From: Rhexocercosporidium sp. MPI-PUGE-AT-0058
Lineage: Eukaryota > Ascomycota > Leotiomycetes > Helotiales
Direction: 5' to 3'
Assembly: GCA_020746875.1 (NCBI GenBank)
Contig: JAGTJL010000002.1
Coordinates: 3,720,001 to 3,784,000, forward strand
Length of the DNA: 64,000 nucleotides
The notes under the pieces were generated by a model. The model was not told where the DNA came from. It did not search any database and was given only the letters and a program-made list of their open reading frames with translations. Of this stretch, positions 23,169 to 64,000 are shown piece after piece (position 1 is the stretch's first letter; the number at the start of each line of letters is the position of its first letter). Both the position numbers and the translations under genes were made by a program.

Positions 23169-23242
23169 CTGTGCAAGAAAGAAACATGTGCAAGCGGGGA
23201 AAGAGCCAAGGGTTTGTAACATAACATGAATACATGATTGAG

Positions 23243-35226: not shown

Positions 35227-35228
35227 TA

Positions 35229-41234: not shown

Positions 41235-41284
41235 TTTTTTTTCATTTTATTAAAGGATATCATTTTGATTTGTGATAGTCCTGT

Positions 41285-42977: not shown

Positions 42978-43019
42978 GTCGCTCCAGCGGCACTACGTGA
43001 GGGGAAGTGTCGATGTTGT

Positions 43020-43104
43020 GTTGGTGTTTCATTGGTGGCGTTAGTGTTTTGTTGGTGGCGTGATATTGTTTTGGTGGCGTATTAGTGTTTTGTTGGTCGC
43101 GTAT
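43020..43104 (+). repeat. Short tandem repeat, about four units of 19-22 bp
   Basis: Units follow TTAGTGTTTTGTTGGTGGCG with variation. The array is non-coding and lies about 40 bp after the kinase-like gene's stop. Confidence 0.6.
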
Positions 43105-43283
43105 TAGTGGGGCGTCGATAGCTTGGTGAACAACCCTTTGTTGAACAGAGGGGAAGATGGGAAGTGGGATGAGGGATGGAATGCGGACGCCCATAGTATC
43201 AATAGCACTCAAACATGTCAATGTATGTGAATTCATTTTACTTTAGCTACATCTTTGATTGTACTATGAAAGTTCCATTCTCG

Positions 43284-44351: not shown

Positions 44352-44647
44352 GATTGATGATTGCTTCTCGAAACTGTTTCCGGGGGCGTACTGGTGCAAT
44401 ATCTATCTGCGCCTACTGCGCCTGCGGCAACAGATCCAGGTTCTCAGAGCTCAGTGATCGGTGATCGACTACGGGATCCAGCCCCCGCTTGGGGCGCCAG
44501 CGCTTATGGAGGAGTGCCGTATGGCCGCATGTTGGGCCAACATGGCATATTTATAAATACCCTAGCTTGTGTCGAAGAACATCCTGGCTTGTATCTCAAG
44601 GAGCACTAAAGGAAATCGAGTATCAAAAAATCTATCTCAACGCCAGA
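44352..44647. promoter_or_regulatory. Divergent promoter between 43284 and 44648 genes
   Basis: The segment 44440-44485 holds GGTTCTCAGAGCTCAGTGAT and GATCGACTACGGGATCC, the shared intergenic words. TATTTATAAATAC at about 44549 is a good TATA candidate for the plus-strand gene, about 100 bp before its ATG. Confidence 0.4.
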
Positions 44648-45748
44648 ATGAAGCTCACTATCCTACCAATCATACTGTTAGCTGTACAAAAAGCGAGCGC
44701 GGATAATCATCTGCCAGTGACTTGTATGTCCGCGCCAGTAACGCCGCTATTTCCCGGTCTGGCAGTAAATGCAAGGTGAATCACATTCCTTGCTTCACTA
44801 ATGCGAAGTTGACTGTGTGAAGACTTGATTCCCAAGGGAAACGATGCGAGGCAACGCTCGCATTCAGCAACCCGGACTTCTTTCCTGTCCGATTCGATTT
44901 CAAAGCCACAGAATGCCCAGGATATGAGGAAGCCGAATTTCGTGTTCCACAAGAGGTTCCCAATGGAAATGCTTTCATTTTATGGTACGACACGTCTACC
45001 CTTCCCTCTGAAGCAGCTGAACTGAAATCATCTCAGGCGTTGTGCCAACCAGCAATCTACGACCTGTACTCAGGCCACAATCACAGGAGGATCCGAAGAC
45101 GCAAATTCAATAGAGTTTAGCCAGTCCGGAATTATCAGGTGCATTCTTCCTGTTGCAACCCAAACTACCCTGATCACCGTAGTGGAGCCATCCACGACAT
45201 TCACAAAAACTGCAACCTCGACAATCCTTTCCACATCAGTTCTCGGTCCTGTGAGTCGTACGGACTCGGCCGTGTCAATGCCAAGCGCTAGCGTTCCACC
45301 GAGCGTCCAGCCCGTGCCAACATCAACTGCAAGCATTTCACCCGAGGTCCAGATTGTGGTATCGACATTGACTGACGGCACCCGCACTGTCGTGACAACT
45401 TTCACCTCGACCGCATCACCAACAGGTAACGTGCCAGCATCTTCTGCAAGTACAGGGATGTCACCCGAGGTCCAGATTGTGGTATCGACATTGACTGACG
45501 GCACCCGCACTGCCGTGACAACTTTCACCCTGACCGCATCACCAACAGGTAACGTGAGAGCATCTTCTGCAAGTACAGGGATGTCACCCGGGGTCAGAAC
45601 TGGAGTGATAACGTCTGTTGACGGGACGCGCACCATTCTTACAACTTTCACCTCTACAGCTTCGACTACTAATACATCTCCTACTCCTGTAACACCCACT
45701 TCGGTGGCCTCGCCTGCTCTGGCAATGACTGCGCCTTGTAAAGATTGA
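44648..45748 (+). CDS. Secreted Thr/Ser-rich protein with internal repeats
   Basis: Exons 44648-44775, 44823-44984 and 45037-45748 give about 333 residues. MKLTILPIILLAVQKASA is a signal peptide. The first about 130 residues look globular with six cysteines (TCMSAPV, RCEATLAFSNPDFFPVRFDF, ATECPGYEEAEF, RCANQQSTTC, RCILP). The rest is Thr/Ser/Pro-rich with a 42-residue repeat (about three copies; core VSTLTDGTRTVVTTFTSTAS), a likely target for O-glycosylation. It resembles a cell-wall or adhesin-type protein. No clear GPI-anchor signal is visible at the end (ALAMTAPCKD), so it is more likely released. Confidence 0.65.
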
Positions 45749-46123
45749 CTGGTGGTATTTTTACCGTATGTTGTGATGTTCTGTGGTCTCAGTTTCTAAG
45801 TGTATTTGATGTAAATGGCGTGCTTGGATTTAGTTAGCAAATAGAAATTGAAACACCCTCTTATCTGTTACAATCAATTACGAAGTACCTTTCCTTCCCA
45901 TCCACGATCGTCCCCCTGGACGCATGGCATGCTTTCCAGGATCACCTTATCAGCTGGCATTGCTGACGGAGGTAGTTCGGATGGCAACTTGCATGACATT
46001 CACTAAACTTGGGCTTCTTCCACCCCCCCCCCCCCTTCCCCAGAGAAAGGTTTAACCTTGTGCAATCGTCTAAATTTTCTCCTTTGGGCATTTGCGTCGT
46101 TTCGTGGTGTTCTCTCCGTTCAG
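45749..46123. other. Intergenic, no gene seen
   Basis: It includes a run of 14 C at 46022-46037, a likely slippage site. Nothing else was recognised. Confidence 0.4.
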
Positions 46124-46450
46124 CTGCGTGGGGAAACCTCACTAGTCCCGACTAGTTTCTGTGCTGCCGAAGTTGGGGAAGGTGGTCCTTGTCAGCCATC
46201 TTCTGGGAGCCCGGATCATGGTTGGGTGGCTGCTGCCAAATGTTGGTGATGGGTTTGGCTTACTTGCTGCGTGGGGAAACCTCACTAGTCCCGACTAGTT
46301 TCTGTGCTGCCATCTTCTGAGAGCCCGGATCATGGTTTGGTTGGCTGCTGCCAAAGTGGGGAAGACGGTCCTTGTCAGCCATCTTCTGAGAGCCCGGATC
46401 ATGGTTGGGTGGCTGCTGCCAAATGTTGGTGATGGGTTTGGCTTACTTGC
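46124..46450 (+). repeat. Tandem duplication, about 142-bp unit
   Basis: CTGCGTGGGGAAACCTCACT begins at 46124 and again at 46267. Within the second copy, GAGAGCCCGGATCATGGTT and TGGCTGCTGCCAAA are themselves repeated, so about 2.5 units are present. CTAGTCCCGACTAG is a palindrome within the unit. Non-coding. Confidence 0.7.
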
Positions 46451-46739
46451 ATGATCTGCAGCAGCTGCATGCAAGGCGTTTTGACTTGGAGGTTCGTGCA
46501 GCAGTCCCTGTAGTAATCCCTGCAGCCACATGGGTGGGAGACGCCATCAGAACCTCAGATCTTGAATCCAAGCTCCGAGATCTCAGTTCTGCGAACCTGA
46601 AAGCCCTCATGCCAGCAAAGAAGGGATTGCAACATGTGTTCAAGTTCTATGATAAATGACGCTTCCATCACCGTCTCAATGCTCCAAATCAACAGCTCGA
46701 TTTTCGAAACAGATCAGTCAACACACAATCTCCATCACA

Positions 46740-47416
46740 ATGCCAGCTCCATCTCATATTAGTCCCAACTTCGACGCCCACATTGGGCAGGTCCGTCTCG
46801 AACCTCTAGGAGATTCGCAGCTTCACCCCGATTTCTATTATCGATCTCCAGAGTGCTTGGCCCCTGTCGAAGACTCCCACTTCGAGCCTGCGGTCACGGT
46901 CTTGTCAATGTCGCTCCAATGGGAGCGTCTTTTGGCCCAGGAGAAGCGTCGAAACCGATCTCTCATGTCCTGGGTATTCTCTTTGCAGGACCAACTGCGG
47001 CAGGCAGATGCGAGCTACAAGACATTGAGGCAGCAATATGACCGCCTTCACCCGTTCCTTGATGCTCAGCCTGGATGGGGACTTCAAGATGTAAGTTACA
47101 TTTTTTGAGCTCCAAGTCACTTTTTTAACATCTTAAGGCCCGGAAGACTCCAACAGGCCCGAATACACCTACTTTTCCGACCCCATCGGATGCCGCCCAT
47201 GCTTCTGCATCCATGCCGCCTCCACCCCCGCCCTCAGCTCCAGCTCCAACTCCGAAAGAAGACGCCTCTCATGGAACGAAGCGTAGGGGAGAGAATGTTG
47301 GCGGTACGACGCCCAAACGCCTTCTGACTCGCAATATTACATTGACCCCATTCGATCGGCCATTGAGCCCCAAGTCACTTTTCAGTCCGGAGACTCCAAC
47401 AGCGATGAGCTTTTAG
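46740..47416 (+). CDS. Hypothetical protein, about 209 residues
   Basis: Exons 46740-47090 and 47138-47416, intron 47 nt. An upstream in-frame ATG at 46656 would add 28 residues. The first exon has a coiled-coil segment (MSLQWERLLAQEKRRNRSLM, then SLQDQLRQADASYKTLRQQY). The second is Pro/Ser/Thr-rich (PPPPPPSAPAPTPKEDAS) with TP and SP sites and KRRGEN and TPKRLL basic patches, suggesting a phosphorylated nuclear protein. No family is recognised. The segment 46555-46590 upstream holds GATCTTGAATCCAAGCTCCG. Confidence 0.55.
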
Positions 47417-47552
47417 GTCGGGCGGATAAAGACTATTGCAAGTATCGGGGAATGTGATCTTGAAGCTATGTATCTATCTATCTGCGAGTGCTACGTCTAA
47501 CGCTCTTTTAAATGAATTCTTTGTCCCTTTTTGTAACTCAATCTCCTTGATT

Positions 47553-48704
47553 TCAAACTGAGCTCCGAAACGGCCAGGCGGAATTAAGGTCGTGCAGAAA
47601 CTCTGACATTTGATGTTGAACCTGATCAGACCCCATATCCAAAGTCTCCAACTCTGAAGTGCCGTACAGCTCCCCACTAAGGGTGATCTCAAGTTGCCTC
47701 TCTAGATCCCTGATCTTGGTGAAGAGACCTTTCCAGGAGCCGTCAGTCAGGGAAGAATCATGCAGACCAAAGTGAGCCAATGAGTCTGCATGCGTCTCCA
47801 AAATATTAGCAAACTCGAGCTCTGAGGTCCACATTCCTCGCAGATCTAGTCGTGTAAGACTCGGCCAGTGGGCAGACTCGAAAATACCGATGGCTGGTAG
47901 GCAACCTCGAAACTTTGCAGACAGCGTACGCAGATTTGGGAACCTCAACAGGAAAGATCTTGTTGATTTCTCATTTTCACATCCCAGAAATTCTTCGATC
48001 TCCAAAGTTTGAATGTGAGGGAAAGTGTCAGATGGGTCTAGGTGCAGATCATCTGGATTGAAACAGCCAAGAACGGAAAATGATGTCAGCTGGTCCATAT
48101 TTGTCCCCGTCTTAGATGCCAGAGACACCGCTTCTATGGTGCGGGTCACATCGCTGGAGTAGAAGGGAGAGAGCCAGATAGATTGTTGAAGTTTGTGATA
48201 CCGGCGGTTAGACTTGGGATTCCACAGGTACTCATGCATATTGGAGACTTGGATAGATGTCAAATTAGGAAGTAGAGAAAATATATCATACAATGCGGAA
48301 ATCTCATCGAAGTATCTACGGCTTTCCTGCTCTGATATGTGCTCTTGGTAAGCCGAAAAGGCTTTGTCTGCTAGCTGTCGCACTGAAGTTGAAGGAAATT
48401 GATGTTGAAGCCTTCCATTCCCACCAAGCAAGAGATGGTGCGTCTCCCACTCCTGACGGGAGCATACTGGCCACCGTACATGGAAAACTCGTAGATTCTT
48501 AACGTTATTAGCGATTCCAGGGTGTTGGAGAACATCTTGGAGCTCTTTGATATCGCTGGATGTATTGAGGACAGAAATTCCATGTCTAGGGATCAATGAC
48601 ACGGCAGCATTTGCGCAAGCTCGATTGGCGAGTCGAAAGTTCGCGAGATCATTTGATCCAAGTTCTGAGGCGATGCAAGAGAGTAATTCAAATGGAACGT
48701 TCAT
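47553..48704 (-). CDS. F-box-like protein with leucine-rich repeats, 383 residues
   Basis: Single exon, ATG at 48704. The N terminus MNVPFELLSCIASELGSNDL followed by ANFRLANRACANAA fits an F-box (LP..L...I...L...DL...R..C). The rest contains LRR-like strands (LPNLTSIQVSNMHEYL, FPHIQTLEIEEFLG, FPNLRTLSAKFRG, WPSLTRLDLRGMW). F-box proteins of this layout select substrates for SCF ubiquitin ligases. It overlaps no other gene and shares about 300 bp of upstream DNA with the RING-H2 gene at 49008, a divergent pair of ubiquitin-type genes. Confidence 0.65.
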   Translation of the reverse strand: MNVPFELLSCIASELGSNDLANFRLANRACANAAVSLIPRHGISVLNTSSDIKELQDVLQHPGIANNVKNLRVFHVRWPVCSRQEWETHHLLLGGNGRLQHQFPSTSVRQLADKAFSAYQEHISEQESRRYFDEISALYDIFSLLPNLTSIQVSNMHEYLWNPKSNRRYHKLQQSIWLSPFYSSDVTRTIEAVSLASKTGTNMDQLTSFSVLGCFNPDDLHLDPSDTFPHIQTLEIEEFLGCENEKSTRSFLLRFPNLRTLSAKFRGCLPAIGIFESAHWPSLTRLDLRGMWTSELEFANILETHADSLAHFGLHDSSLTDGSWKGLFTKIRDLERQLEITLSGELYGTSELETLDMGSDQVQHQMSEFLHDLNSAWPFRSSV

Positions 48705-49007
48705 TTTATATGCAGATCTCTGAAAGGATAGGCTCGTTAAATCAACATTTTAACGACAAGAAACATTTCGCTATTTAACACTGTGCATGTAACTTAGTTT
48801 GAGAACCAGGAAACAAGAACCAAGGAATGGAAGAAGGACCAGCATGAGAAGCAACAAAGTAAATGTTCCAGGACCACGAACCAAGATCCAAGATCTGTAT
48901 CATAATTCAACTGGGTGAATATATAAACAGGATCTCCCACCTAAAAGAAGATTCTCACTCACAAGGAGATCATCTTTCGATAGGACCCCCTATCCTAAAC
49001 CCACAGA
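48705..49007. promoter_or_regulatory. Divergent promoter between F-box-like and RING-H2 genes
   Basis: It contains GAACCAGGAAACAAGAACCA and GAACCAAGATCCAAGATCTG, words of the shared intergenic type, and TATATAAACAGG at about 48920, a good TATA box for the plus-strand gene 88 bp before its ATG. Confidence 0.4.
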
Positions 49008-52000
49008 ATGCCTCGTACTGTTGGAAGGCGAGAGTTAGCAGGTTTAGACGCCGATAACGTTGTTGATTCCCCACGAACGCCACGAACGCCCCAAAGAGCG
49101 GCTCCACGCACACCAAGAACTCCAAGACCACCCCCTGCTAGAGCGAATAGTTACCACAGTGATCAAGATGAAGAAGGCGAAGAAGTACCACAGCCACAAA
49201 GAGACCCATCTCCAGAGAGACACAGAAGTCCAACCCCCGGGCCACACAGAGACCCCTCTCCAGAGAGACACAGAAGTCCAACTCCACGGCCACACAGAGA
49301 CCCCTCCCCAGATAGACAGAGAACCCCCCGGCCACACAGAGACCCCTCTCCAGAGAGACACAGAAGTCCAACTCCACGTCCACACAGAGGACCCTCCCCA
49401 GATAGACAGAGAACCCCCCGGCCACACAGAGACCCCTCTCCAGAGAGACACAGAAGTCCAACTCCACGGCCACACAGAGGACCCTCTCCAGAGAGACACA
49501 GAAGTCCAACTCCACGGCCACACAGAGACCCCTCCCCAGATAGACAGAGACCCCCCCGGCCACACAGAGACCCCTCCCCAGATAGACAGAGAACACCAGC
49601 GCCCCAGACACCAAGAGACGCTGAAAGAGACGTACGGGCTGCAGCAGCAGAACAACGCCGCGAGGATCCTAGGTCAATTGTAAATACTCGAAATTTTCGA
49701 GAAGATAGGCGTGAAGAGAGACGAAGTGGAAGTCCCAGAAGCCCGCCTCGACAACCAGTGGCCGAAGGTCTCCTCAACCTGCGACAACGCAGAGAATCTC
49801 GACATACGGCGGAAAGTCTTGGTGGAAGGGCTCCATCATTGAGCCCGATGTCCCAAGACGTCCCCTTAGTTATTGATGTATCAGAAAACAGACACAGGAG
49901 ACCATCTTTGGAAATAGAGTTCTGGAGAATGCAACGGCCACATGAGTCGGAATATGTTAACCAGCTTCGACATGAGGGATTTCTCGAACCCATTAGCATC
50001 GACCGGACAAGATCCGGAATGTGCGGTATATGCATCGAGGATTACATTGATGATCCCCATGAGAGGCTTATCGTTAGATTAGGTTGTGCGCACGACTTCC
50101 ATCAAAACTGTATCGAGCTGTGGCTTGCAGAGAACCGGGATTGCCCTTTTCGTTGTGTTCCGGAACGACGACGATCAGTGGAGCTCCGTCTCAACCAGGC
50201 GTTCCGCTCAGACGCCCCGTTGCACGCCAGGGCAACTTTGGACACGATAGGATTCCAAGCAAGGGCACAGGACCGGTGGCAGGAAGAGGAGGCACAAGGA
50301 CAAGGTCAAGAACGACTATATGAGAGCCCGGAGATGAGACAAGCACGAGAACGAGGGAGAGCTCGGCGAGACCAAGAGCGTACTGCTGCTTCACCACAAC
50401 GAATGGGTAGATCATCAGATATTACAATGGAAGATGTTGGCGATCGACATGTTATCAACTTGATATCTCCAACACTAACCCCTCGAAGGTATGCATCTCC
50501 ACAACGTATTGCATCTCCACGACGTGCTGCATCTCCACGACATGAATCACCCCGACGCGCTGCATCCCCACGGTATACTGCATCCCCTCGACGTACTGAA
50601 TTCTCTCGCGGAGGAGACACGCCTTTCATACGTGAGGATACAGTCGAGTTGCCATCAATCAATGATGATTTTGTAGGCGAACCGGGTTGGGAAGAGGACT
50701 ACCTAAACCGACGTCCTATACGTGCGGGAGTGCTCCCTCCAACAGGATTCGTGATTTCAGAAGACCGCTTGAACCCAAGAAACTTTATATATAAAAGAAT
50801 CGTAGATGTTCTTCCGGCAATGTCTACAGGTTACAACGTCTTGCTTTCTTCGCCAAGCGCTAATCTTACCACGCCAGAGTTGTCTAGGTTGAAGCAGTAT
50901 GACCTTGACCCTCTCTCTGAACATCCAGGCACGTTAGACTTTCTTGATGGCCGAGTAGGTGTCCCTGGGAAACTTTCCGACCTTGAAGGTATATCTCTGA
51001 GTGAGTTGCGCTGGGTGGGCATTGCAGTTGTCAAGCAGAACAACCGTCAATTCGTAGTTGATCGGGGAAGGGCTGGCTCAGCTCCCTTAGTACTTGCTCC
51101 TGTGCCAGCTAGAAACCCATTCACTAGAATAGGCCTCACACTCTTGCCTGGAGATAATCGATGGCGCCATAGGGACGTGTGGTTTAACCAAAAAATAGTC
51201 GAAAGAAAGTATGGGCAAGCGACAATAAGAACAAAGGCAAGACAGCTTCGAGAGATGACTGGGCAAGCCGAGCCACGGTTTGCTGCAGCACAGAGGCCAG
51301 AACCTCGACCTAGAAGGTTAGAACCTGTCTATGACGCTGATAGAAATAGAGAAAGAGAAAGACTTGTTGGTGTTGGACAAACAGGGAGAAACCTCCCAAG
51401 ACCAATAGAAGACAGGCGCGAGAGAGATGTTGAGAGGCCTATCGAACGGGAGAGAGACAGGCGCGACAGATACGAGAGACCTGAAAGGGAGAGGGAGAGA
51501 GACAGACGCGATAGAGACGAGAGAACTGAACGAGAGAGGGAGAGAGATAGGCGCGAAAGAGACGAGAGACCTGTCGAACGAGACAGAGACAGGCGTGACA
51601 GAGACGCTGACAGACCGGAGGGAAGAGACAGAGATAGGCGCGACAGAGATGAGAGACCTGTGGAAAGAGACAGAGATAGGCGCGATAGAGATGGGAGACC
51701 CGTCGAACGAGACAGAGACGCTGACAGACCGGAGGGAAGAGACAGAGATAGGCGCGACAGAGATGAGAGACCTGTGGAAAGAGACAGAGATAGGCGCGAT
51801 AGAGATGGGAGACCCGTCGAACGAGACAGAGACGCTGACAGACCGGAGGGAAGAGACAGAGATAGGCGCGACAGAGATGAGAGACCTGTGGAAAGAGACA
51901 GAGATAGGCGCGATAGAGATGGGAGACCCGTCGAACGAGACAGAGACGCTGACAGACCGGAGGGAAGAGACAGAGATAGGCGCGACAGAGATGAGAGACC

Positions 52001-52409
52001 TGTGGAAAGAGACAGAGATAGGCGCGATAGAGATGGGAGACCCGTCGAACGAGACAGAGACGCTGACAGACCGGAGGGAAGAGACAGAGATAGGCGCGAC
52101 AGAGATGAGAGACCTGTCGAACGAGACAGAGATAGGCGCGATAGAGATGAGAGACCTGTGGAAAGAGACCGAGACAGGCGCGACAGAGATCATGAGAGAC
52201 CTGTCGAACGAGACAGAGACAGACACGACAGGGAAAGGGAAGGGGAGATGGGAGACAGAGAGGGTGATAGACCGACTCAAAGGAGGCCTGAAAGGAGCTA
52301 CATCCAAAGGCCTACGAGGCCACCAGCCTACGAGCCTGATGATGTAATGGAGAGGGTGCGACAAGCCAGACGAGAAAGAGGCCAACCTTCACGTGATTCG
52401 ACATTATAA
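49008..52409 (+). CDS. RING-H2 protein with long charged repeat regions, 1133 residues
   Basis: Single uninterrupted exon, ATG at 49008. Residues about 20-60 have PRTPRTPQ repeats. Residues 60-200 hold about ten 13- to 15-residue units of the type PHRDPSPERHRSPTPR. A RING-H2 finger follows near 345-385 (CGICIEDY, CAHDFHQNC, CPFRC), with the C3-H2-C3 spacing of E3 ubiquitin ligases. After about 500 come ASPRRAASPRH repeats, then a folded region to about 760. From about 790 to 1090 is a long Arg/Asp/Glu repeat; the core 39-residue unit (DADRPEGRDRDRRDRDERPV, then ERDRD) is present about five times almost unchanged. The charged repeats probably form disordered or alpha-helical segments that bind RNA, DNA or partners. 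Divergent partner of the F-box-like gene. Confidence 0.8.
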   Translation: MPRTVGRRELAGLDADNVVDSPRTPRTPQRAAPRTPRTPRPPPARANSYHSDQDEEGEEVPQPQRDPSPERHRSPTPGPHRDPSPERHRSPTPRPHRDPSPDRQRTPRPHRDPSPERHRSPTPRPHRGPSPDRQRTPRPHRDPSPERHRSPTPRPHRGPSPERHRSPTPRPHRDPSPDRQRPPRPHRDPSPDRQRTPAPQTPRDAERDVRAAAAEQRREDPRSIVNTRNFREDRREERRSGSPRSPPRQPVAEGLLNLRQRRESRHTAESLGGRAPSLSPMSQDVPLVIDVSENRHRRPSLEIEFWRMQRPHESEYVNQLRHEGFLEPISIDRTRSGMCGICIEDYIDDPHERLIVRLGCAHDFHQNCIELWLAENRDCPFRCVPERRRSVELRLNQAFRSDAPLHARATLDTIGFQARAQDRWQEEEAQGQGQERLYESPEMRQARERGRARRDQERTAASPQRMGRSSDITMEDVGDRHVINLISPTLTPRRYASPQRIASPRRAASPRHESPRRAASPRYTASPRRTEFSRGGDTPFIREDTVELPSINDDFVGEPGWEEDYLNRRPIRAGVLPPTGFVISEDRLNPRNFIYKRIVDVLPAMSTGYNVLLSSPSANLTTPELSRLKQYDLDPLSEHPGTLDFLDGRVGVPGKLSDLEGISLSELRWVGIAVVKQNNRQFVVDRGRAGSAPLVLAPVPARNPFTRIGLTLLPGDNRWRHRDVWFNQKIVERKYGQATIRTKARQLREMTGQAEPRFAAAQRPEPRPRRLEPVYDADRNRERERLVGVGQTGRNLPRPIEDRRERDVERPIERERDRRDRYERPERERERDRRDRDERTERERERDRRERDERPVERDRDRRDRDADRPEGRDRDRRDRDERPVERDRDRRDRDGRPVERDRDADRPEGRDRDRRDRDERPVERDRDRRDRDGRPVERDRDADRPEGRDRDRRDRDERPVERDRDRRDRDGRPVERDRDADRPEGRDRDRRDRDERPVERDRDRRDRDGRPVERDRDADRPEGRDRDRRDRDERPVERDRDRRDRDERPVERDRDRRDRDHERPVERDRDRHDREREGEMGDREGDRPTQRRPERSYIQRPTRPPAYEPDDVMERVRQARRERGQPSRDSTL
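51600..52080 (+). repeat. 117-bp coding tandem repeat
   Basis: About four to five copies of a 117-bp unit inside the RING-H2 gene, beginning GACGCTGACAGACCGGAGGG and continuing GGCGCGACAGAGATGAGAGA. Copies are almost identical over the whole unit, which indicates recent expansion. Confidence 0.85.
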
Positions 52410-52824
52410 TTGGAATTGAAATTGTATCTCTCTGGGTTTTAGATAAATAGATTCGCAAATAGACTAGTTACTTGGTTTCATACACTGACTTTCATCTTTC
52501 CGTGCCTGAAACGGCGTACTCCTTTCCCAGAGAGGGATCGTAATGGAGCCTGCGGCTTCGGCAGGTCATTTGGCGCTCTGCCGGATAAAAATTAGTTGGC
52601 CACCGATGCGTCATGTGTTAGCCGATACGGCTGCCTACCCAACTCGCAAGGCACAATGAGCATTAGCCACGTTTGAGCTGGTGTGGCGCAAAAGCGGTCT
52701 GGAACGAGCAGCCATAATTTGGGGGCATTTTACTTACAGGGCCTCCTTCCCAATATTGGTATCCATGTGACGGCCATTCCCAGGCGCATCACCATTGGGC
52801 TTTACCACCAGCCAGCATATATCA
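52410..52824. other. Intergenic, no gene seen
   Basis: It contains GCGGCTTCGGCAGG and ATGCGTCATGTGTTAGCCGA stretches but no coding signal or recognised element. Confidence 0.35.
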
Positions 52825-53238
52825 ATGAGACAGATTAAGCATTCCGACTCCAAGCAAGAAACCCTTAAGCAAATTCATTCAAACGCTTGGCTTATTGGTA
52901 ATCTCGTGCTCCATCGATCACCCTTTCCTTCCGAGACATCCACCTGGAATGACGATGGTGACAATTCAAGCTACACACTGACGGAGGCACCTACCCCACT
53001 GCCTTCTGCCACCACACCGCCCGACCCCCATATCAAGCTGGTTCATGAAGCTGGCGATGCCTCTGCTGTCTGGTTCATAAGAAATAATGCCTTGTGCAAA
53101 GTCAGGTACATCGAGGAGGGAGTCACACCTGAATCAGTCACCCTGGACTCATTCAATTATGTTTTCCCATACCAGCTTCCTTTATTTACCTTTATTATTC
53201 GGGTGCATGGCATGCGGCTTAATTCCAGAATGGGATAA
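52825..53238 (+). pseudogene. Possible N-terminal remnant of a phosphotransferase-like gene
   Basis: The frame from ATG 52825 contains AVWFIRNNALCKVRYIEEG and VTPESVTLDSFNYV. This resembles the N-terminal lobe of fungal aminoglycoside phosphotransferase (APH)-like proteins (W..G....KV.....TPE..TL.FV). The catalytic HxD and DFD segments do not follow: the frame ends at 53238 and the next gene starts on the other strand at 53382. It may be a truncated gene or a small real protein. The family assignment is weak. Confidence 0.35.
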
Positions 53239-53381
53239 TTTCTTTAGCAGAACAATACAGTAACGAAACTATCAGCAAGAGAAGAAAATCATGTGTTCGC
53301 AACTGAGAATTCCAACCAGTTATGACTGGAGTTGGTCTGTACCATCACCAAGACCTATCCTCCATTTCCTCAACCAGATCC

Positions 53382-56274
53382 TCATCTTCCTGTTCCTCTT
53401 TCTCGCATGTGTCCATCTTCCAGTGAAATCATCTCCTCTTCCAACCCCATTCTCAAGTCGGTGTAGAAAGCGGCTGCCTTGGGCCAGGCTTCAGAGACCA
53501 TGCACTCTGCCCTATAGCGAAACCTCATAGTGCTCAGGACCCTCGCCTTTTGATAACCGAATTTCTCCACTTCTTTTGCGTTGGGTGCAATGGGATTAGA
53601 GCCCAGTTCGATGATACATGTAGGGTCCATTTCATGGAGCTTGTTCCTCAATATTGGCAAATACGACTTCCGCACAGGAAGCTCCCATGACTCATCCTCT
53701 AACTCCACGATACTGAGAATGTCGTCCAAGTTCCCCAGCTTGTCAAGATTTTGTGCGTACTGTCCAAGATAAGACACGGTCACGAGAGTATATAAATTGA
53801 AGTCGTATCCATCCATTTGAATACGGCCCAATTCCTGATCTGTTTCGATTCTAGTCTGTTCGGAAAAAGCAGGAGGATCCGTCTTCGATTGTGCGACCAC
53901 TCCTCCCAACCATGTTGTAAACAGATGCAAGACTCGGTCGGTACAGATCCAAAGCCCCTTGTCAAGCCTGGTATCTCTTAACATAGGATCAACCAACATT
54001 CTTGCAAGCGCATCAACCTTCCGATGTTGTGCCTCAACGGAACCCAGCAACTCCACATCTTCCCTGCTGGGTTCAACATTATATGGAAAGCATCTCGTAT
54101 CGAGATCCTGTTCCAATGTTGAAACGTATGACTTTCGCACAACCACGACTGAGGAGTCGTTTGGTAAAATGGCCGTACTGAGAATGTCTTGGTGGGGCGG
54201 AACTTTTGGCAGGCACACGTAGACGAGCTTGTATGCTTCCAAGTGAAGTTCAGCGGAGGGGAAAGCAGACATGCGATGTTTGTCGTCGGACACGCAAAGA
54301 GAGGCAACGGATTCCTCCAGTTGTGGTACCAACACCCAATCCCCATCCATGGTTGGCTCCTTTTCATGGTCGAGTGTGGCCATCTCCTCGAGCATCGCCT
54401 CCTCACCACGCCTCCCCCCCATCAAATTGTCGAGCCCGTCTATTTTGAGAACATCGCTATGACCTAGTCCATCCCTTACTCTGCGTGTCCAATATAAATC
54501 GGAAATTTCGTGGGCAGGGTCCAAGGCGAGTGGCTCTATATGGAATACACTGGCGAGAAACTGGCGCATTTTCTCAGTGTCGTTTACAGTCCAAAAGATC
54601 CTTAGAACTGAAAGCACCATGTGTTCGAAGACTGTCTGGGTATTACTGAGGTATTTGAAGTTCAAGATTGCATCGAAATCCGCAAGGTATGAACGGTTGA
54701 TCGGCTGATTGGCATTTGGATTAGGGGGCGAAAGTCGTCGATAACAGAGCAAAGCCCCGAGGGTCAATATGAGCTGCTCCTTTGACTGAGAGTCTTGGAT
54801 GTCTTTGATAAGTCGTTGATAGAGCGTCCATGAATCAATCGAGGCTGCCCATTTGATCAAGACTTGACTAGCCGACGGCGTGATTGAGTTCCAACAAAGA
54901 AGCACAAGAATGTTATTCCTCGGCATCTGAAGGGAAGGATGTTTGCGGTAGAAATACGCTCTGTCTCCTATCAGTATCATTCTCGATATCACATGAGGTG
55001 CTTACATTTGTGCGTGAATCATACCCACTTGTTCGAAGTTAAGTCTCCTTTGAATCTCGAGTGGGATGTTCTAGAGAATTAGAATTGCTCAAGTCTGGAA
55101 CCCACAAGATCATACCAAGTATTCGTTTGGAAGACCAAATGGAAGGCGAGCCATCACTTGTGTGCTCATTTTCACAACGTCCAGCGTATGGATCGTGTTG
55201 TTAAGGAAGAGCGGGGACTTTGATAGTGCATCGAGCATCCTCTGCGGGTCAAAAATCTCAAAAGGCTTCAATACTTCAATACCGACGAGAGAGCTGATTA
55301 TGTTGGCATTAGCAATAGCAGTGTATTGCTGATCAATCTTGTGTTGCCGACAATCTCGCTTCCCGCCCAGAAATTCGAGCCAGCATCGGAAAAGTGATAA
55401 TCTGTGAAACTCTGCCGCAATTTGAGCAGAGTCCAATCCAGCCTCGCAATTGGCAATTGAATTTCTGGGGTAGGCAGATAACTGTCGGTAGAGGTACCGA
55501 AATCCTTGGAGTAACTCGGCTTCATTCTTCCCCAGGAGCGCAAGAACATCTGGTGAGTCGTAGTCGTCGCAGCAGCCCAGAACAAGGAACACAAGACTTT
55601 GGGCTAATTTGGTGCGGATGTGAATGTCGGACTGCTGAGAACAAGTCAATGTTGTTCCTTGTAAGGGGACAAGGACGTGGTTACCAGGTCGCGCCACAAG
55701 ATTGTCCACTCAATCGGCAATTTTTGTCGCACAAGGGCGTGATTCCGATAAGCTAACACAAGTCCTTGGGGGCATCCAGAAGTAATTGCGCGGACAGCAT
55801 CTTGGATATAGCGGGCATCAGCATTCCGCGGCGCCGTGAATTCTTCCTCATTCACTGGCTTCGCAGGGTCTACGTGTAGAAACTTGAACCCATTTAAGGC
55901 GAGCCACGGAACATATGACTCGTTGACTGCGACTCGGTACATGCCATAGCCGCTACCAGCAACGTGTATGCCCGGTGCTGATCGGATTTGATCCCAATCA
56001 GACTGTATTGGCTCAATTTGATCCGCTGGCACATGGTAAAATCTCCACGGTCTGTCACTCAGAAGCGTACCGATAAGCTCGCCCGCATCGAATGGGGTTC
56101 GCTGAGCGTTCTAGCGTTGTTAATAATGGGTTCTTGAGAAAGTTAACAAAGCTTTACCTGCTCGACCACAGTTCTGACCAATATTTCCCCGTCAATAGGG
56201 TTGGTGACTCCAGGGATAGGAGTGGATGGGGTGGAATCGAATGCTGGCATCTCGAATACCTCGTTACACGACAT
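53382..56274 (-). CDS. Unrecognised 898-residue protein
   Basis: Exons (minus) 56274-56158, 56101-55685, 55634-55116, 55070-55006 and 54960-53382. All introns are 45-56 nt with GT...AG ends, and the frame is continuous. An alternative donor/acceptor pair for the last intron would change a few residues near HAQIAYFYRKHPSL. I do not know the family. Features: a Pro/Ser-rich start (MPAFDSTPSTPIPGVTNPID), a globular part (GIHVAGSGYGMYRVAVNESY, FKFLHVDP), a long, largely helical middle, and an acidic C-terminal end (LRMGLEEEMISLEDGH). No signal peptide, membrane helix or catalytic motif is visible. It is convergent with the remnant at 52825. Confidence 0.6.
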
Positions 56275-56821
56275 GTACAGTTAGGCAAACAATGCAGCCT
56301 CTGAAGCAAAGTGGGCAAAGAATGAGTCTCTTTAACAAAACGAGGCAAACAGTCTTTCCTAGAGAATGCCAGTCATTTATATGATAAACCAGTGAATGCG
56401 AATCCGAACGACAGAGTTTGCTCCACACCATATGTTTGCGTGCATGCCGGAACCCTGGGCAGCCCGGGGATCACGGAAGAGACGCAAGTCAAGCCGCGAA
56501 TACGCATTGAAAAAAGAAAGACAGGCCGCACTTGGGCAGCCACGGGGTGCTCACACAAACATGGAGCCGCTGGTTGGCTGCGTCGATGTAAAATGCGTGC
56601 CGGAATTGTGCAAGGCCTAGCAACTGGGTGCATGGCCGTTTCCTGCCCTTGTCACCTACCAATATTTGCGTAAGGCGCTTTGACGATACCCCTGTTCGAG
56701 CTGAAGGTGTGTTGTGCCAGTGACTGGCTTGGCTAGACGAAGGCGCATGAAAAGGCAACAAAGTTTCCTTTTCGTAACTGCTCTGCATCGAAACTGCCCA
56801 AAAACAAATGGAACCGATATC
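56275..56821. other. Intergenic between divergent genes
   Basis: Short frames on both strands (about 56373-56788) overlap each other without domains, and none is supported. No clear TATA box. Confidence 0.35.
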
Positions 56822-58680
56822 ATGACCATATCATTGAATCAAGAAACGATTGTTGCAATCTCCCCTTCTCGTGTTTTCGAATCAAAGGTAAGACAAAACC
56901 TGTTTTCAATTTGCGATGAGAGATTGCTCATTCGTTCAAGACGTCACCATCGTCCAGGCGAAGAACACTTGACCACTGCGGCGAGAATGCCCCGGGAGGT
57001 AGTCATTCCATCTCCTCAGACCCATCGTGGCCACTGGCATTCCAATCCGAAAGTGCCAGCCTTCAATCATCTGGTCTCCAGGCGTTGAGCACACCGTCGT
57101 CTCCTCTCTCCCTTTCGATAACTCCGGTCGAAATAACACAAAATCTGTCGACAACCTCGACACTCTCACCACTATCAAATGGTGCCTCGACGAGGGCTAC
57201 TCCACATCTGTCGACAACAACCTCGACCCTCTCATCACCATCAAATGGTGCCTTGACGACAGCCAATCTCCCCCAGTTGGAATTGTCGCCCCTCTCATCT
57301 TCCCTCACAGAAAGTGCACCGGCAGCTCGCTCAGTTGAAAAATACTTTCGTGATAAGCTTAAGCCCAAGGACACCAATCGAGTCAAACATTTGGTTCGAG
57401 CAGTCGATGGCTTTATTCAGTCGCAAAATCTCGACTTGGCGGCGCTTGCCTTCGTAGTGGAAATCTGGTCAAGGATTTGTCGAGGATGTGGTGAGTCTAC
57501 TACAAGGCTTCAGCGTCTATATCTGGCTTCTCAAAAGTTTGATCACCACTTCACTAATCTGCTCGGTAACATATTTTTCGGCCATGAGCTAGAACATATT
57601 GTGCAGTCAAAGAACCTGGACCTGTTGAGCCACAAGGATCTGTTAGTGGGCCAGAAAAGGGCGAATGCGGCTTGCGCAAAAGCATCTACAGAACTTGGCA
57701 TTCCACTGAAAGATGTACAGGCGAGATACAAAAGGAGCAGGCTACTCACGCGGCTTCTTACAGAAGATGGGCCTGGTATACTTTTGCAACTGGGCATTGG
57801 CGTAGATTCTATGTAAGTGAAAAGCAACCCTAGCTCTGTCAGACGATTGTACTGACGGCATACTAGCTGGGAGGTCAAACTCACCAAAGAGGATGTAAAT
57901 CTCCTACTTGAATATCGCGCAAAACATTTGGTACATCTCAATGACCAAGCTCGCGCACTTGACTCATGGGCTAGCCAAAGGCTCCTCGACGCCATGATAT
58001 CTTATGGTTGGAGTGGGGACGAGCTGGCAAGTAGCCGCAGTGGACTGGCGATGTGCCTGCAACGACACCAAAACCTTGTTCAATTACCAGACATGGAAAG
58101 CAACGTTGCAATCACACAATCTCTCGGATGCTCAGTAGCGGCAGAGGACTCGGGCGCTTCAGACGACCGAACTCAGAACAAGAGACGGTACGGTGGTCCA
58201 GACAATACAGGACGTCCAGTCAAGCGAGTTCGGCAGGCAGAGGGAATTGAAGAACTGGATATATCGATGATGCAGGCGCTTGCCGCTGATAACCCGTATA
58301 TCACGACGGAGGTCCCGGCGCCTCAACTGGACATATCGACGATGATGCACCATACCCTAGCTCTCGGGGTGGACATATCGACGATGATGCACCGTGCCCC
58401 AGCTCTCGGGGTGGATATATCGACGATGATGCAACAGGCTCTGGTGTCCGGGCAACTGGACATATCGATGGAAATGCAACTAGAACAGAATTTTGGGGTG
58501 AATGGAGGTCATGTAGCCTCCGCAGACGTTCGGGAACCTGAAACTTTCAGTGGTATTGCGACCGACGCTGCCACTCCATGGGGACAGACCACAACAAACA
58601 CTCAACCATACATGTTCCCAGCCCGCAACACAACCCAAAGCATGCAATTACTTCATTTTGAACAGCAAGAATATGAATGA
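56822..58680 (+). CDS. Hypothetical protein with DIS-MM repeats, 583 residues
   Basis: Exons 56822-56887, 56941-57812 and 57867-58680. The first small exon (MTISLNQETIVAISPSRVFE) is needed because the main frame has no ATG before residue 300; the splice GTAAGA...TTCAAG joins in frame to TSPSSRRRTL. The N-terminal half is Ser/Thr/Pro-rich, including a repeat with STTSTLSPLSNGAST and STTTSTLSSPSNGAL. A helical central part (YFRDKLKPKDTNRVKHLVRA, then LTKEDVNLLLEYRAKHLVHL) follows, then a basic patch (NKRRYGGPDNTGRPVKRVRQ) as a likely nuclear signal. The C-terminal part repeats LDISTMMHH/VDISTMMHR about four or five times. No family is recognised; a nuclear role is possible. Confidence 0.55.
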
Positions 58681-59357
58681 TGTATTCCCGCAGCCATCCG
58701 ACTTCAAGCTTGAATCGCCAGCCAGATAAATGACAGACCCTACATTCCAATCTATGGACGAGGTCACCCCACGAGAGTCATAGTATTCAATTCTGGGATT
58801 TCCATCTTTCACCAAAGGAATCGCCACAGCTGAGGTAAGGGGAGGTATTCGGAAGGGTCCTTCGGTAAGGACAAACACCTCGGGAATCCACCATGATTCG
58901 ATTTTATTTGGATCAAAGACCATTGCGGTGGAGGAACTAGAATTGATCTGTTTGAAAGACCTTAGCTATGAGGGATACCAATGGAATTGCAGGGTATTGA
59001 GCCAACCTTATCCTGGTAGCTTCTGACGAATTCCTTCTGCACATCTGCGCAACTTCTCGTAAAGTCGATTTTGGTGACGGGTTTCTTTTTGGCGGAAATT
59101 GTGCTTTCACGGCAGTCGCGCGCGGCTTGCTCGACCAAGCGGAGAAAGGTTGTGGTTGGCTGCGAAATTGTAAGAGACCCTTCTCTGTAAGCAGACATCT
59201 TCAAAATACATGTCCCTTTAGAAAGCTCAAAATTCGATGCGGCAGCGTTCCGAGATATGGCGTGCCTGTTAGGCAATGCTCCGGATGAAATGAGGTCTTT
59301 GGACGTGGCAAGCGCACAAACCTTCCTTGCGGGGTCCGTGTTCACGTGACTTCGCAT
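58648..59357 (-). CDS. Hypothetical protein, about 216 residues
   Basis: Exons (minus) 59357-59007 and 58947-58648. ATG at 59357. The intron is inferred from GTTGGC...AAACAG, which joins EFVRSYQDK to INSSSSTAMVFDPNKIESWW in frame. The donor is not ideal. The C-terminal exon looks folded (VFVLTEGPFRIPPLTSAVAI, SIDWNVGSVIYLAG). The stop lies 33 bp inside the end of the convergent gene on the plus strand, so the 3' structure may be wrong. No family is recognised. Confidence 0.4.
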
Positions 59358-61994
59358 CTGACTGATTTACCAACCGCTTGTTTAAAACCGGTCTTTCAAT
59401 CACTTTCGTATCCCATTGTCAGCAGGTCTAAAGTGAACTGTTTTTTTTTTTTGGCTTGCCTATCAGCATTCAGTGTCCAACTTTGGCTCCTGACTAGATC
59501 ACGATCTCCCACGTGCTGAATGGGTAACGATTGGGCCTCCCGATGTACGGCTCATTACTCTTGGTTTGGATGCCGCCTCGATGTCCCCCCAGCATGGCTT
59601 CTTTACTATTCTCACAATCACGGCTTTGCTAATTTATGCCTCTATACTCATCAAACACCCAGCTACCTCAACAACCTAAGGAATGCGAGTCCAGCATGCC
59701 TTCCCCTTCGCATCTCCTGCGCCGCCATCAAACGATGCGAAGCCTCTATAGTCTCAATCACCTATCAGCAAACCCCTTCACGGAACATCTCACGAACACC
59801 ACGGTACACGCAACCCGAAACTATTCTCTCTATGTTCGGCTAGGTAGCCGGGAGAAGCCAGTGGAGGTATGACAAGGTGATGGGGGAAGGTGATCAGCTA
59901 GACAACTTCGGATTATATACCAAGTGGATACAACTCAGGTCGAAGTTATGGATAACAGACTCTAAAGTGCTGGAGCGCGGGTCAAGTGAAAGTGATATCT
60001 TTGGGAGTCACCCTCTTTCCGCTGCTCGATCATGATGAGTTTCTGTCTATTCTTGGACCGTCAGCAGCTCCAGGACTTTGCGGATTGAGTCTTGTCATAG
60101 CAAAGGAGAGAATTGGGAAAGATGACAATTGGTTGAATTCTGTTACTGTATGTAAATGTTTTGTGTTCAAGGTATGAAGATTAATTAAAAACTACTCCCA
60201 GAAGAGAAAAGTCCCCATACAATGTGTCCAGCAGGTGGCTAGAGATGCTCTCTGATTTCTTTCGAGATGGTATCCCAATCATCATGACTACTGAGTTGAT
60301 GGTTTCTGACCAGGCTCGTAGCACCTGGCTCCAATATCCGGCACATGCCCACAATGTTCGGACGCTTTTCGTGAATGTGCTCGAGGAGTGGCAATAGCAA
60401 GAAGAATGGCGAGAGCGAAGAAGGGGAAGAAAATGAAGAGGCGGAGGTGCTGTCAGGAGGAAGCCAAAGAAGCGGGTAAGTCAATATGTCATCCCCACGT
60501 TTGTTTCGAATTTCCGGCTGCTCTTTTTGATATTATTGAGGTGTATCTCCTACTGCTAGCAGGCTGGATTGGACGCTCGAACTCGGCTATCACTCCACCT
60601 TGCTAAGCAGTAATGGCGGAGCCACTGCACAGCCTTGACTTCGCGGCTGGGGCCTTGACGCCTCAGGCAGTACGGAGGAACACAACTCCAAGCTGAGATT
60701 AGGCAGCAGCGTTCCAGTCCCAACTCGGCGCCCAAGAGCCAAGTTTCAAGTGCTCTGATTAGAAAGTCGAGATCCAGGGGACGGGGAAAGCAGCGGCCGC
60801 GATCTGAGTTCCGAGACCCGCGATCTGATCCTGCTGCACCGCAGAATGAAGAGAAAAGACGAGGTACAAATCCGACCAAAAACATCGTGGACGCCCATCA
60901 GCCAATCGGCATTTGGCGCCGCATCGGCGGGCTGCCGCGCGCAGGGGTTTTGAATGGTTTGAATTTAAATAGCGCCATTGGCGAACAGTACCCGTTAAGC
61001 GGGCTCAGACCTCAGACCTCAGATCTCAAATCTCGATCTTATCTTATCAGATATTTTTCCCGCCGTATGATTCGTGGGTCGAGTGGCTGGTTGTCGGGAT
61101 CTTAGATCTCGACCGCGCTTACACGCCCCTTGATCTCGACTTTCTAATTAAAAGAACTAAGTGTGACTAGAATAGGTACCTGCCGAATCCCAGCTTAGAA
61201 GCTTAACCGAAAGTTCGGGGGTGATGTCTGAGGCATTAAGAGTCCCAACTGTGAAGTCATCCAAGGTCTTTGTCTCTGCCGGTTGCTACTTGGCAAAGAA
61301 GCGATAGTTGAGAGAATCAGCGTCCTCGATTGGAATAAGTAGCGCTTGCACTTCAACCAAGTTAGAGAGTATTCAAAACACATTGACTCGGTGGCAGACA
61401 ATTCAATGTATATCAAAACAGCAGCCGGGAATTCTATAGGGAAAAAATAAAAGAAAACCTGGGACGGGACTTACCGCTGGCTTGCCCGCTCAGCCATCTT
61501 TGTGTAATCCTCGGAATTGACTGTTTATCCCCCTTCCTTCAAGATTATTTCCTTTCCCAGTGTTCGTCGCGATGTATATAGCGCTGAAAGATGATACATT
61601 GCCTGCTCGTTCGGAATTGATGGGCTGACCCTGGGAGACGCCGGAGCCTTGATTTGATTCATGTTTATGTCGTGGAGAGCATGCCATGGTTACAGCCTCT
61701 TCGCATTCTCTTGTCCATTATAACTCAAAGGCATCCTAACTTAGAGATACTTTCCTTTTTAAAAGCCGCGTTCCATATATCTACACATCCATACAGCAGG
61801 AATTAAATTCAAGTGCCACTCCCTCGTGATAAGCGAAAAATTAGAATTAGATGGTACTGAAGCCGCGAGACTATAGTAAATCACAAGGAGTTCACTTAAA
61901 GCAATCATCTCTATGATAGATATTATACATGTTCGTTGACCAACTCAATAATAAGAAAACCTCAAACTCAAAGTGATTAAAAACAAACGGAAAT
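59358..61994. other. Gene-poor stretch before the captain
   Basis: About 2.6 kb without a supported gene. The short frame at 60239-60484 (minus) has a plausible end (RNHQLSSHDDWDTISKEIRE) but no start codon or upstream exon, so it may be the last exon of a lost gene. 60790-60835 and 61005-61045 hold dense GATC words (GCGATCTGAGTTCCGAGACC, CTCAGACCTCAGATCTCAAA). A run of T lies at 59442-59452. Confidence 0.4.
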
Positions 61995-64000
61995 CTACGT
62001 GATCAGCTTCTCACCCGGACCTCGTGAAACTGTCCCATGAAACCTCTCTGCGTGAACTAGCAATTCTATTCGGGTCTTGAGACGAACATCACAGTCCATG
62101 CAGTCAACGAACTGGCCATCTTGCAGTTTGCTTACGTGCTTTCTCAAGAAGTGTCGACTCAGGGAACCGGGGGTCGCATACTCGGCGACCCTCTCGCGCT
62201 TTGTCAGGTGCGGATTTCCAATACAGCAAAAACATATTTTGGGCCTCTTATCGGTCTTGATAGAAGATATCGCCTGGCGGAGTGCGACATCTGGCTCGGC
62301 GGCTTGCATGGGGGGACCGACAACCGTGCTAGGAGGACCACGCTGAACATGGCGAGACGGTGCCCCCTCTTCTACGCCGCAGTACAACGTGACCGCGTTG
62401 ATAGCCGTGATTCTCCGTTGCAGTTCCTGTTCCGGTGACTTCCCAGGTAAGGTGAGGATCGCGTCTATCAAGCCTAGCTGCTCTGGCGACATGTCTGCCC
62501 GGACCAAGGCGTCTCGCGTCTCCTCATCAACCACCATGCCTGACAGCTGCCGTTCGCTATCCCTCACCGGCTGCTCTGACTTGTACCGTTCCTTGATATC
62601 CTTGAGGAGTTCTCTCCGCTTCCGCTGCTTCTCATTATACAATCGCTTGATGGCCTTCTGGAGCCTGTCATCTTTCCGGCTCCCGACAGGAGCGTTGGAC
62701 AGGTCGCTGACTCGTTTGTGCAACTTCAAGATATATGGAAGGTCGTTCACAGACGCAGTTTGTTCCGGTGTCAGCTTCCGCGGGCGGCGGGGGTCGATCG
62801 AGCGGCTCATGGAGCATGCGAACCGCATCAGGTCCTTTTGAGTGTCCAGCCTTCGATACACGCCCTGAAGGTCAACGTTGATATCATTGAGGTAGTGTTT
62901 CAAGAAAGTGCCGATACTTGCATGTTGTAGGATTTTATTCTGAAGCGAATCGCTAACGTCCGCTGTTTGGAAGACCTTAAGTCAGTATGATGCCTGAGTA
63001 ATAGAGGATCGGGCACTTACGACTTTCATTCAGCCCTTTAGCTGAACCATCTCGGAGGTTGTAAGGTTTCAATACCTGTTCAAAGCCGGTGATCTCGCCC
63101 CCTACCTTCATCCGGTACCGTACCGATCCAGATGAGAGCTGCAGCTCGCGAGCAATACGAACGCCTTGTGCTTCACGAACCGCCTTACAGAAGATAAACT
63201 CGTTGTTCATCTCGTCTCGTAGCGGTAGTGGCTGCTCATTAAGTCCCTTGAGGACTTTGAGGCTGTATAACCTTTCCGGACAATTAATACTCGGAGACTT
63301 GAATGCACGAGCCTTAAATAGCATGCCGAGCAGGAAGACGTGCGGGCTAAGCACAAGGGTTGGATCGTAGATAATCTCGGGAATTTTGAATTCGTTCCTG
63401 GCAAGAGTCAGCAAAATAAATTAGGGTAGCTAGAGGCGAAGGAAGGGAACGTACATATCTTTTGAGCCAAGATATCGTTTCGTGAACTCGGGCGTTAGTT
63501 CAATAAAAAGACGAGGACGACTACCTCCATCGGGATCTCGAATCAGGGTCAACTTCAGGTGTCGATACCGGAGCTCAACCAGAGCCTCCGGTCGATTACC
63601 TGTGATGCCTGCAAGCTGACAGAATAGGACGAGTTGGACTCGGAGCCATCCGATGTCAAAAGTCATCTCGGTCGTAGCTAGAAGGACTCGCGCGAATTCA
63701 GCCAGATCCTCTGCATACATGGTCGCACTCGGCCGCTTTGTGAAATCGAGGTCCTTTTCTACTGCTACGATCTTGACGACCTAAGGATCTCGTTAGCATT
63801 AACTATAACGCTAGAAAGGTGTGCGAAGGCTCACATCTTGACCATTCACTTGGATCATAGGATCAATCGTCCTCCCAGTTTCAACCCTGTATACTATTAA
63901 GTAGCACTTCCAGAATGTCTCCAGCGAGCTCGCATATTTGATTCCTGGCCGCCTGCGGCCTCCTTCCCCTCGTCGTTGATCGCACACCCAGCTCAAGAAG
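61995..64000 (-). CDS. DUF3435 tyrosine recombinase (Starship captain), C-terminal part
   Basis: Exons visible (minus) 64000-63835 (continues off the window), 63780-63455, 63397-63021 and 62962-61995, about 612 codons in one frame. Introns are 54, 57 and 58 nt. Recognisable in order: FLSWVCDQRRGEGGRRRPGI, SSLETFWKCYLIVYRVETGR, TFDIGWLRVQLVLFCQLAGI then TGNRPEALVELRYRH (first catalytic Arg), KIPEIIYDPTLVLSPHVFLL, KPYNLRDGSAKGLNES (second Arg; family members usually read LRYGAGKALN), QHASIGTFLKHYLNDINVDL (His...Tyr), SRSIDPRRPRKLTPEQTASV, and a C-terminal C2H2-type zinc region (CFCCIGNPH, CMDCDVRLKTRIELLVHAER). Captains cut and join DNA to move Starships. No stop or frameshift is seen, so it looks intact. 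The gene starts beyond the window. Its orientation puts the element's 5' end to the right. Confidence 0.9.

Follow-up and report, generated by a model that had tools for sequence, protein, structure and literature searches.

The window analysed here is a stretch of 64,000 bp of Rhexocercosporidium sp. MPI-PUGE-AT-0058 (Leotiomycetes, Helotiales; contig JAGTJL010000002.1, designated C12; positions C12:3720001-3784000), taken from a 62.7-Mb assembly of 60 contigs. At its right edge, three minus-strand frames between positions 61995 and 63780 matched PF11917 (DUF3435) with E-values of 2.5e-55, 1.3e-50, and 2.4e-32, and pieces of this gene, the captain, ranked first and fourth among 99 DUF3435 matches genome-wide. 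The gene model was completed with the next 10 kb of the contig to the right, which placed the ATG at window coordinate 64431, 431 bases beyond the edge, and the stop at 61995, giving five exons, four introns of 54-63 bp, and a protein of 734 aa. The best relative listed (P0001, Leptodophora sp. 'Broadleaf-Isolate-01') was 93% identical over 734/734 residues without a gap, and this full-span alignment speaks for the exon model and for an unbroken gene. The original prediction had described a minus-strand gene with the layout of a DUF3435 tyrosine recombinase and no visible break, the first exons and the insertion site lying beyond the window; the profile search and the alignment bore this out, and the edge was found to cut exon 2, leaving exon 1 and the promoter outside. 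Among the 120 relatives listed, the best of 182 found, no database protein exceeded 93% identity to the captain and none carried a label identifying it as the protein of this gene; another protein of the same contig is listed, and the intact captain gene may be missing from the public annotation. BKA65DRAFT_522596 of the same fungus contains several stretches 100% identical to C12:932-934 kb.

The active site of the captain was assigned from an alignment with 90 relatives, which were chosen from the 120 listed mainly on length and coverage, and likely comprises R241, K279 or K285, Y399-x-x-R402, H426, and Y436. These residues were conserved in 87 (R), 85 and 87 (the two K), 86 (Y of Y-x-x-R), 86 (its R), 88 (H), and 89 (nucleophile Y) of the 90 sequences. 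Of the Arg, His, and Tyr elements that had been predicted, R241, H426, and Y436 are present, but the place of the Cre His is occupied by a Tyr (Y399). In the Sanctuary and Hephaestus captains, Tyr likewise replaces the Cre-type His (Tyr-x-x-Arg) while the nucleophile Tyr is the same, and both tyrosines of HhpA are reported as necessary (PMC12506042). The residues R, Y-x-x-R, and Y of Starship captains are accordingly represented by R241, Y399, R402, and Y436. Searches of five relatives, picked for PF00589 (phage integrase) in their annotation, with that family gave one match above the cut-off and four just below it, and P0001 gave no PF00589 match. A profile of the 90 relatives matched no solved tyrosine recombinase and gave weak zinc-finger matches only.

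Both ends of the element were found outside the window, which is wholly enclosed by an interval of 94,652 bp (C12:3690276-3784927) that extends 29.7 kb further to the left and 927 bp further to the right. At the 5' (captain) end, homology with sister loci breaks off sharply upstream of the captain: the alignment with the C10 captain DNA stops at window coordinate 64932, or near 64960 when extended, and the short copies from C22 and C3 extend to the same point. The 3' (left) end was sought in 50 kb of contig left of the window. Nothing convincing was detected inside the window or in the first 20 kb leftward, and the following 30 kb contained a copy of the captain end in inverted orientation, starting at C12:3690276. 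The resulting imperfect inverted terminal repeat, TACGATGAGACGGTTAGCGGG at the left end and TACGGTGAAACGGTTAGCAGG at the captain end, is identical at 18 of 21 positions, a score that was matched by 0 of 1000 shuffles. A genome-wide search with the 3' end sequence recovered the end itself, a single further place differing at 3 positions, and one match of the control, without a second copy, so that this border rests on one element. The two ends are flanked by a direct repeat, AAGTA, at C12:3690271-3690275 and C12:3784928-3784932. The captain comes first among the genes at the right (5') end, its ATG about 0.5 kb from the tip, and is transcribed inward. Extension of the contig to the right, the check proposed originally, recovered the 5' end of the captain gene and the border of the element on that side; the predicted position of the captain at the 5' end, its transcription into the element, and the assignment of the rest of the window to cargo all agree with these borders. 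The size of the element, with its cargo genes, falls within the Starship range of 15-700 kb (PMC12289983), and it has short direct repeats as well as terminal inverted repeats, the latter being a frequent but non-universal feature of Starships.

Both flanks are halves of one RIP-mutated, AT-rich dispersed repeat, which has the same orientation on the left and on the right. This repeat carries small GC-rich islands, and about 350 bp of its right part is approximately 99% conserved in certain copies, the remainder being diverged. A query consisting of 400 bp of each flank joined by one AAGTA matched uninterrupted copies at three places (C3:1816 kb, C19:543 kb, and C3:1604 kb) in alignments that cross the junction, with 86-88% identity over 765-829 bp. 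Such junction-spanning alignments were obtained at 3 of the 11 repeat places compared (7 of the 19 overlapping loci), and the other eight places gave no single alignment through the junction. In addition, the uninterrupted copies shown carry 21 bp at the junction that are absent from the joined flanks and by eye form a short tandem duplication. Because of these extra 21 bp and the eight places without a spanning alignment, the empty site is paralogous and not base-exact; as judged from these alignments, the paralogous repeat copies provide the empty site expected of a Starship. The TA/AT ratio was 0.70 in the element, 1.39 in the right flank, and 1.44 in the left flank, and the GC content was 0.495, 0.23, and 0.25, respectively. 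Since the flanks are RIP-mutated and the element is not, the element probably inserted after its landing site had undergone RIP.

Next, the gene content of the element was surveyed. A codon-bias gene finder yielded 4 frames, and open frames were listed instead; 37 hand-picked frames of the window, of about 120 aa or more, and 3 further frames to the right of the element were included in a Pfam scan. Twenty of the 37 window frames had no family at E 0.01, and several others matched only under the cut-off. The Starship accessory genes named in PMC12506042 are DUF3723 genes, ferric reductases, NLRs, and patatin-like proteins, and the first three of these families are present in the window (Table 1). 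In the ferric-reductase-like gene, the NAD-binding part scored above the cut-off and the membrane part just below it; PF01794 reached 27.2 of 28 bits and PF08022 19.3 of 22 bits. The stretch covering the DUF3723 and ferric-reductase genes had one other match in the genome, of 113 bp. The two HET-NACHT-WD40 genes share the same layout and have similar WD40 parts, and a GC peak of 62% at 36-38 kb coincides with the WD40 part of the second. A possible degenerate patatin-like gene was noted by eye; it gave no Pfam patatin match, and zf-C3HC4 matched under the cut-off. The ankyrin frame is made up of similar repeats, and a second reading frame there also contains long repetitive open frames. It was the only frame named by NCBIfam, through repeat matches that were under the cut-off in all but one case, and the effector names attached to them carry no meaning here. 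A family was assigned to 4 of the 10 frames scanned in the 29.7 kb of the element to the left of the window (Myb-like, transthyretin-like, and two kinase-like), two of these under the cut-off. Two captains of the same lineage elsewhere also have a DUF3723 gene on their contig, about 53 kb and about 10 kb downstream, and these pairs are probable decayed sister Starships.

Table 1. Features of the window and of related loci. Coordinates without a contig prefix are window positions; those with a prefix are contig positions.
Feature	Coordinates	Strand	Evidence
Starship interior, most probable reading	1..64000	.	ends, direct repeat, joined flanks
BCS1-like AAA frame, cargo	1466..2824	+	PF08740, PF00004
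DUF7025 and AAA frames, cargo	3548..5439	+	PF22942, PF00004
Ankyrin-repeat frame, 1285 aa, cargo	9315..13169	+	PF12796
Possible degenerate patatin-like gene, RING-like cysteine motif	15881..18896	-	by eye only
DUF3723 frame, 892 aa, Starship accessory family	20490..23165	+	PF12520, E 1.3e-61
Ferric-reductase-like gene, two frames (24354-24992, 24946-25794)	24354..25794	+	PF08030 above cut-off
HET-NACHT-WD40 gene (NLR type), two frames	26596..31255	-	PF06985, PF24883, PF05729, PF00400
Second HET-NACHT-WD40 gene (NLR type), three frames	35880..40290	-	Pfam scan
RING-finger frame, 1136 aa, cargo	48999..52406	+	PF13639
Captain gene, DUF3435 tyrosine recombinase (whole gene 61995-64431)	61995..64000	-	PF11917, exon model, 93% relative
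Captain exon 5, with H426, Y436, and two C-terminal C2H2-like motifs	61995..62962	-	zinc-finger matches weak
Captain exon 4, with Y399 and R402	63021..63397	-	exon model, alignment of relatives
Captain exon 3, with R241	63455..63780	-	exon model, alignment of relatives
Captain exon 2 (64069-63835)	63835..64000	-	exon model
Captain exon 1, outside window	64431-64133	-	exon model
Dispersed repeat, right half	~64925-66056 (L031:925-2056)		many genome copies
Dispersed repeat, left half	C12:3689336-3690275		
Same-lineage captain with DUF3723 gene	C12:878045-879562 with C12:932695-934010		
Same-lineage captain with DUF3723 gene	C10:15068-15545 with C10:3374-4696		
End-module copies without captain	C4:502914, C3:2293480, C16:268824, C22:55035, C35:8046, C3:16553, C9:29836, C22:19821, C42:64114		

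The terminal bases at the captain end resemble stretches located 1.2-1.3 kb upstream of four DUF3435 matches of other lineages (C4, C5, C12:2.86 Mb, and C12:3.88 Mb), the pieces of which are 27-44% identical to the captain described here. The shared part, an end module of the form GGCTGCTGTTTTCGG-N2-GGTTT-N-GTCGCTG, starts 24 bp inside the captain end of the element. With up to 3 mismatches, this pattern occurred 22 times in the genome and its reversed control 0 times. Thirteen of the 22 copies point towards a DUF3435 match that follows 959-2524 bp downstream on the same strand, and these genes belong to several lineages; the chance of at least 13 such copies by random placement was 2e-30, distances being calculated with 60 of the 99 DUF3435 pieces, typed by hand. 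The pattern was built from 8 copies, 5 of them within the 13, and the figure therefore overstates the independent evidence; eight of the 13 are independent of the pattern (C17 three times, C27 twice, C24, C1, and C12:995 kb). The conservation of the core likewise follows in part from the choice of pattern, and the copies on C10 and at C3:2239 kb are too altered to match it. The remaining nine of the 22 copies had no DUF3435 match downstream within 10 kb (Table 1), one of those on C22 having a DUF3435 piece 2.3 kb off on the opposite side. These captain-less copies could be solo ends, decayed elements, or non-autonomous Starships. No exact match to the pattern was found in viral_contigs.

The sequence around the core was sorted by eye into four classes. 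A palindromic site was considered for the module and rejected, as the inverted arms of the copy belonging to this element are not general and the control failed: over 23 copies, own arms had a mean score of 5.8, against 5.6 when arms were exchanged within a class, 5.1 when they were exchanged between classes, and 4.8 after shuffling, and own pairs reached 7 or more in only 3 of 23. A second DUF3435 gene, damaged by RIP, lies about 95 kb to the right of the window (C12:3878798-3880173, plus strand) and has its own module at C12:3877555, about 92.6 kb from the captain end of this element. The literature searched, largely open-access papers, yielded no account of such a core, which may nevertheless be in print.

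In summary, the window appears, with a probability of roughly 0.94, to be the interior of a single Starship of 94,652 bp that was inserted into an already RIP-mutated repeat and has an intact captain as the first gene at its 5' end. Both ends lie outside the window, so that the whole of it would be Starship interior. The captain would bind the module at the 5' end and, at the 3' end, the inverted repeat; strand exchange would proceed through Y436, aided by R241, a Lys, R402, and H426. It would excise the element between the two copies of AAGTA, and the element would have been inserted at a TACTT-type target, with the cargo carried along. The captain may be active at present.

The two similar NLR genes in the interval, the captain-less end modules elsewhere in the genome (9 of 22), and the nested Starships known in Verticillium (PMC12289983) would suit an arrangement of nested mobile elements, in which the captain belongs to the outer one and some of the cargo, such as the block of DUF3723, ferric-reductase, and NLR genes, derives from an older captain-less element. 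Such nesting is unlikely, however, since no other DUF3435 match lies in C12:3690276-3782387 (among the 99 listed genome-wide), no second end module falls in the interval among the 22 genome places, and a single outer insertion would account for the halves of one repeat on either side and for the one direct repeat. The repeat to which both flanks belong has multiple copies, a usual substrate of ectopic recombination, and the block could in principle have moved between repeat copies by such recombination or by translocation without participation of the captain. Such a process would not be expected to leave a 5-bp direct repeat, an inverted terminal repeat precisely at both borders, and a captain as the first gene inside one of them, and transfer by repeat recombination alone, which we regard as very improbable, was rejected on these three points. 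Hardly any weight can be given to the view that the captain-like gene is domesticated and stationary and that the region is an ordinary accessory one free of mobile elements; many DUF3435 genes are indeed orphans without a known element (PMC12289983), but both ends and paralogous empty sites were found here, and the alignment of the joined flanks contradicts it.

For the end module, a role as promoter element of the captain gene in place of a recombination site was also weighed. The module lies about 0.5 kb upstream of the captain ATG in this element and 1.0-2.5 kb upstream of DUF3435 matches in the 13 copies mentioned above, as a promoter might, whereas its location at the very tip of the element, the recurrence of the adjacent 21-bp stretch in inverted form at the other end, and the nine copies without a downstream DUF3435 match within 10 kb argue against this reading, which is thus doubtful. 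Because the module is at the tip and the neighboring stretch is inverted at the other end, a putative recombination site is likelier than a promoter element. It can be proposed tentatively, at somewhat less than an even chance, that Starships of different captain lineages share this terminal module, the captains reading its constant core while the surrounding lineage-specific sequence gives specificity. If so, the module would suffice to locate the 5' border of a Starship and its direction from one genome, with no need of an empty site, and the copies that lack a captain would represent either solo ends or non-autonomous Starships mobilized in trans.

The host genes around the element were compared with those of related species. 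To the right of the dispersed repeat lie a DUF1996 gene and a gene named DUF8004 in relatives (BKA65DRAFT_388987 is a 98% match to the host gene right of the element), and to the left are host genes including a Fibroin-3 related one, an Arl8-like and an RNA polymerase I subunit-like frame being recognized by eye only. The DUF8004 gene had 22 homologues and the Fibroin-3 related gene 178, of which 120 were listed; they were compared by name, and both genes were represented in at least 6 species among the matches listed. On the assumption that tags are ordered along the contig and that equal contig size denotes one contig, the right and left genes lie three tags apart in Diplocarpon rosae (QTJ16_006616 and QTJ16_006619; contig of 1,612,414 each), 11 tags apart in Oculimacula yallundae (VTL71DRAFT_9766 and _9777; 673,617 for both), and 31 tags apart in Phialocephala subalpina (PAC_18810 and PAC_18779; 249,308 for both). 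Without the 94.65 kb, the present genome would likewise have two genes between them, a 177-aa frame and DUF1996, which were compared with the D. rosae pair by number only. As far as tags tell, the D. rosae arrangement favours an insertion between the two host genes. In Diplocarpon mali, Cudoniella acicularis, and Phlyctema vagabunda, the homologues lie on contigs of unequal size, which may reflect fragmentation or rearrangement. In Leptodophora, the 93% captain and the DUF8004 homologue are on contigs of 2,249,519 and 4,763,125 bases, respectively; as far as contig sizes tell, this related captain would sit at another place. Identities of captain versus host gene were 93% versus 86% in Leptodophora and 82% versus 64% in Rhynchosporium agropyri (P0001, P0004, P0005), and the captain of Calycina marina was 82% identical versus 40% for the other host gene. 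That the captain is more alike across Helotiales than the flanking host proteins provides a lead towards possible horizontal transfer.

In the Starships of Aspergillus fumigatus, such as Logos (Prometheus family) and Neb (Hephaestus family), the captain is at the 5' end; of 20, 19 have direct repeats of 2-12 bp and 18 have inverted terminal repeats, and mean sizes are 19-291 kb (PMC12153272). The present element is similar in its 5'-end captain, short direct repeats, inverted terminal repeats, and size, but its host belongs to another class, and its cargo and captain are different. Its 5' junction, TACTTTATTATA, is similar to the Logos target A(N10)TACTTATTA(N)A(N6)A (PMC12153272). For Sanctuary of Bipolaris sorokiniana, the proposed captain active site is R, A, K, Y, R, Y (PMC12506042); it shares with the present element the Tyr-x-x-Arg in place of His-x-x-Arg and the DUF3723, ferric-reductase, and NLR accessory genes, whereas it measures 170-196 kb, carries ToxA, and has different direct repeats (ATWHCT/ATACCT; PMC12257634). 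Direct repeats of the Phoenix family are TTTAC, TTTACT, and ATTAC (PMC12257634). On the captain strand, the sequence of the 5' junction is ATTACTT, hinting at a likeness to that family, but the repeat common to both ends is TACTT, and this target-site likeness would be only a hint as a family indicator. Cryptons are tyrosine-recombinase DNA transposons of fungi with short direct repeats, which are small and are not known to carry comparable cargo. They are also named in PMC12506042 and resemble the present element in the tyrosine recombinase and the short direct repeats; an identity as a Crypton was nevertheless rejected, given 94.65 kb with cargo and a DUF3435 protein.

The element belongs to a known kind, the Starships, and both of its ends were found. 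Starship borders are normally obtained by presence and absence between assemblies, a route that has given 143 elements against 10,628 orphan captain-like genes (PMC12289983). Here, both borders were derived from one genome by two routes, namely the landing in a dispersed repeat whose other copies act as empty sites, and a captain-end module that also occurs upstream of several captains of other lineages. Terminal inverted repeats vary within and between Starship families, according to a review (PMC12257634), and a constant core beside such variable repeats would offer a new approach to orphan captains as well as a candidate target of captain binding. The circle route of Starship movement is described as open (PMC12506042), and this locus supplies an intact captain and both natural ends as substrates for asking whether Starships move via a circle.
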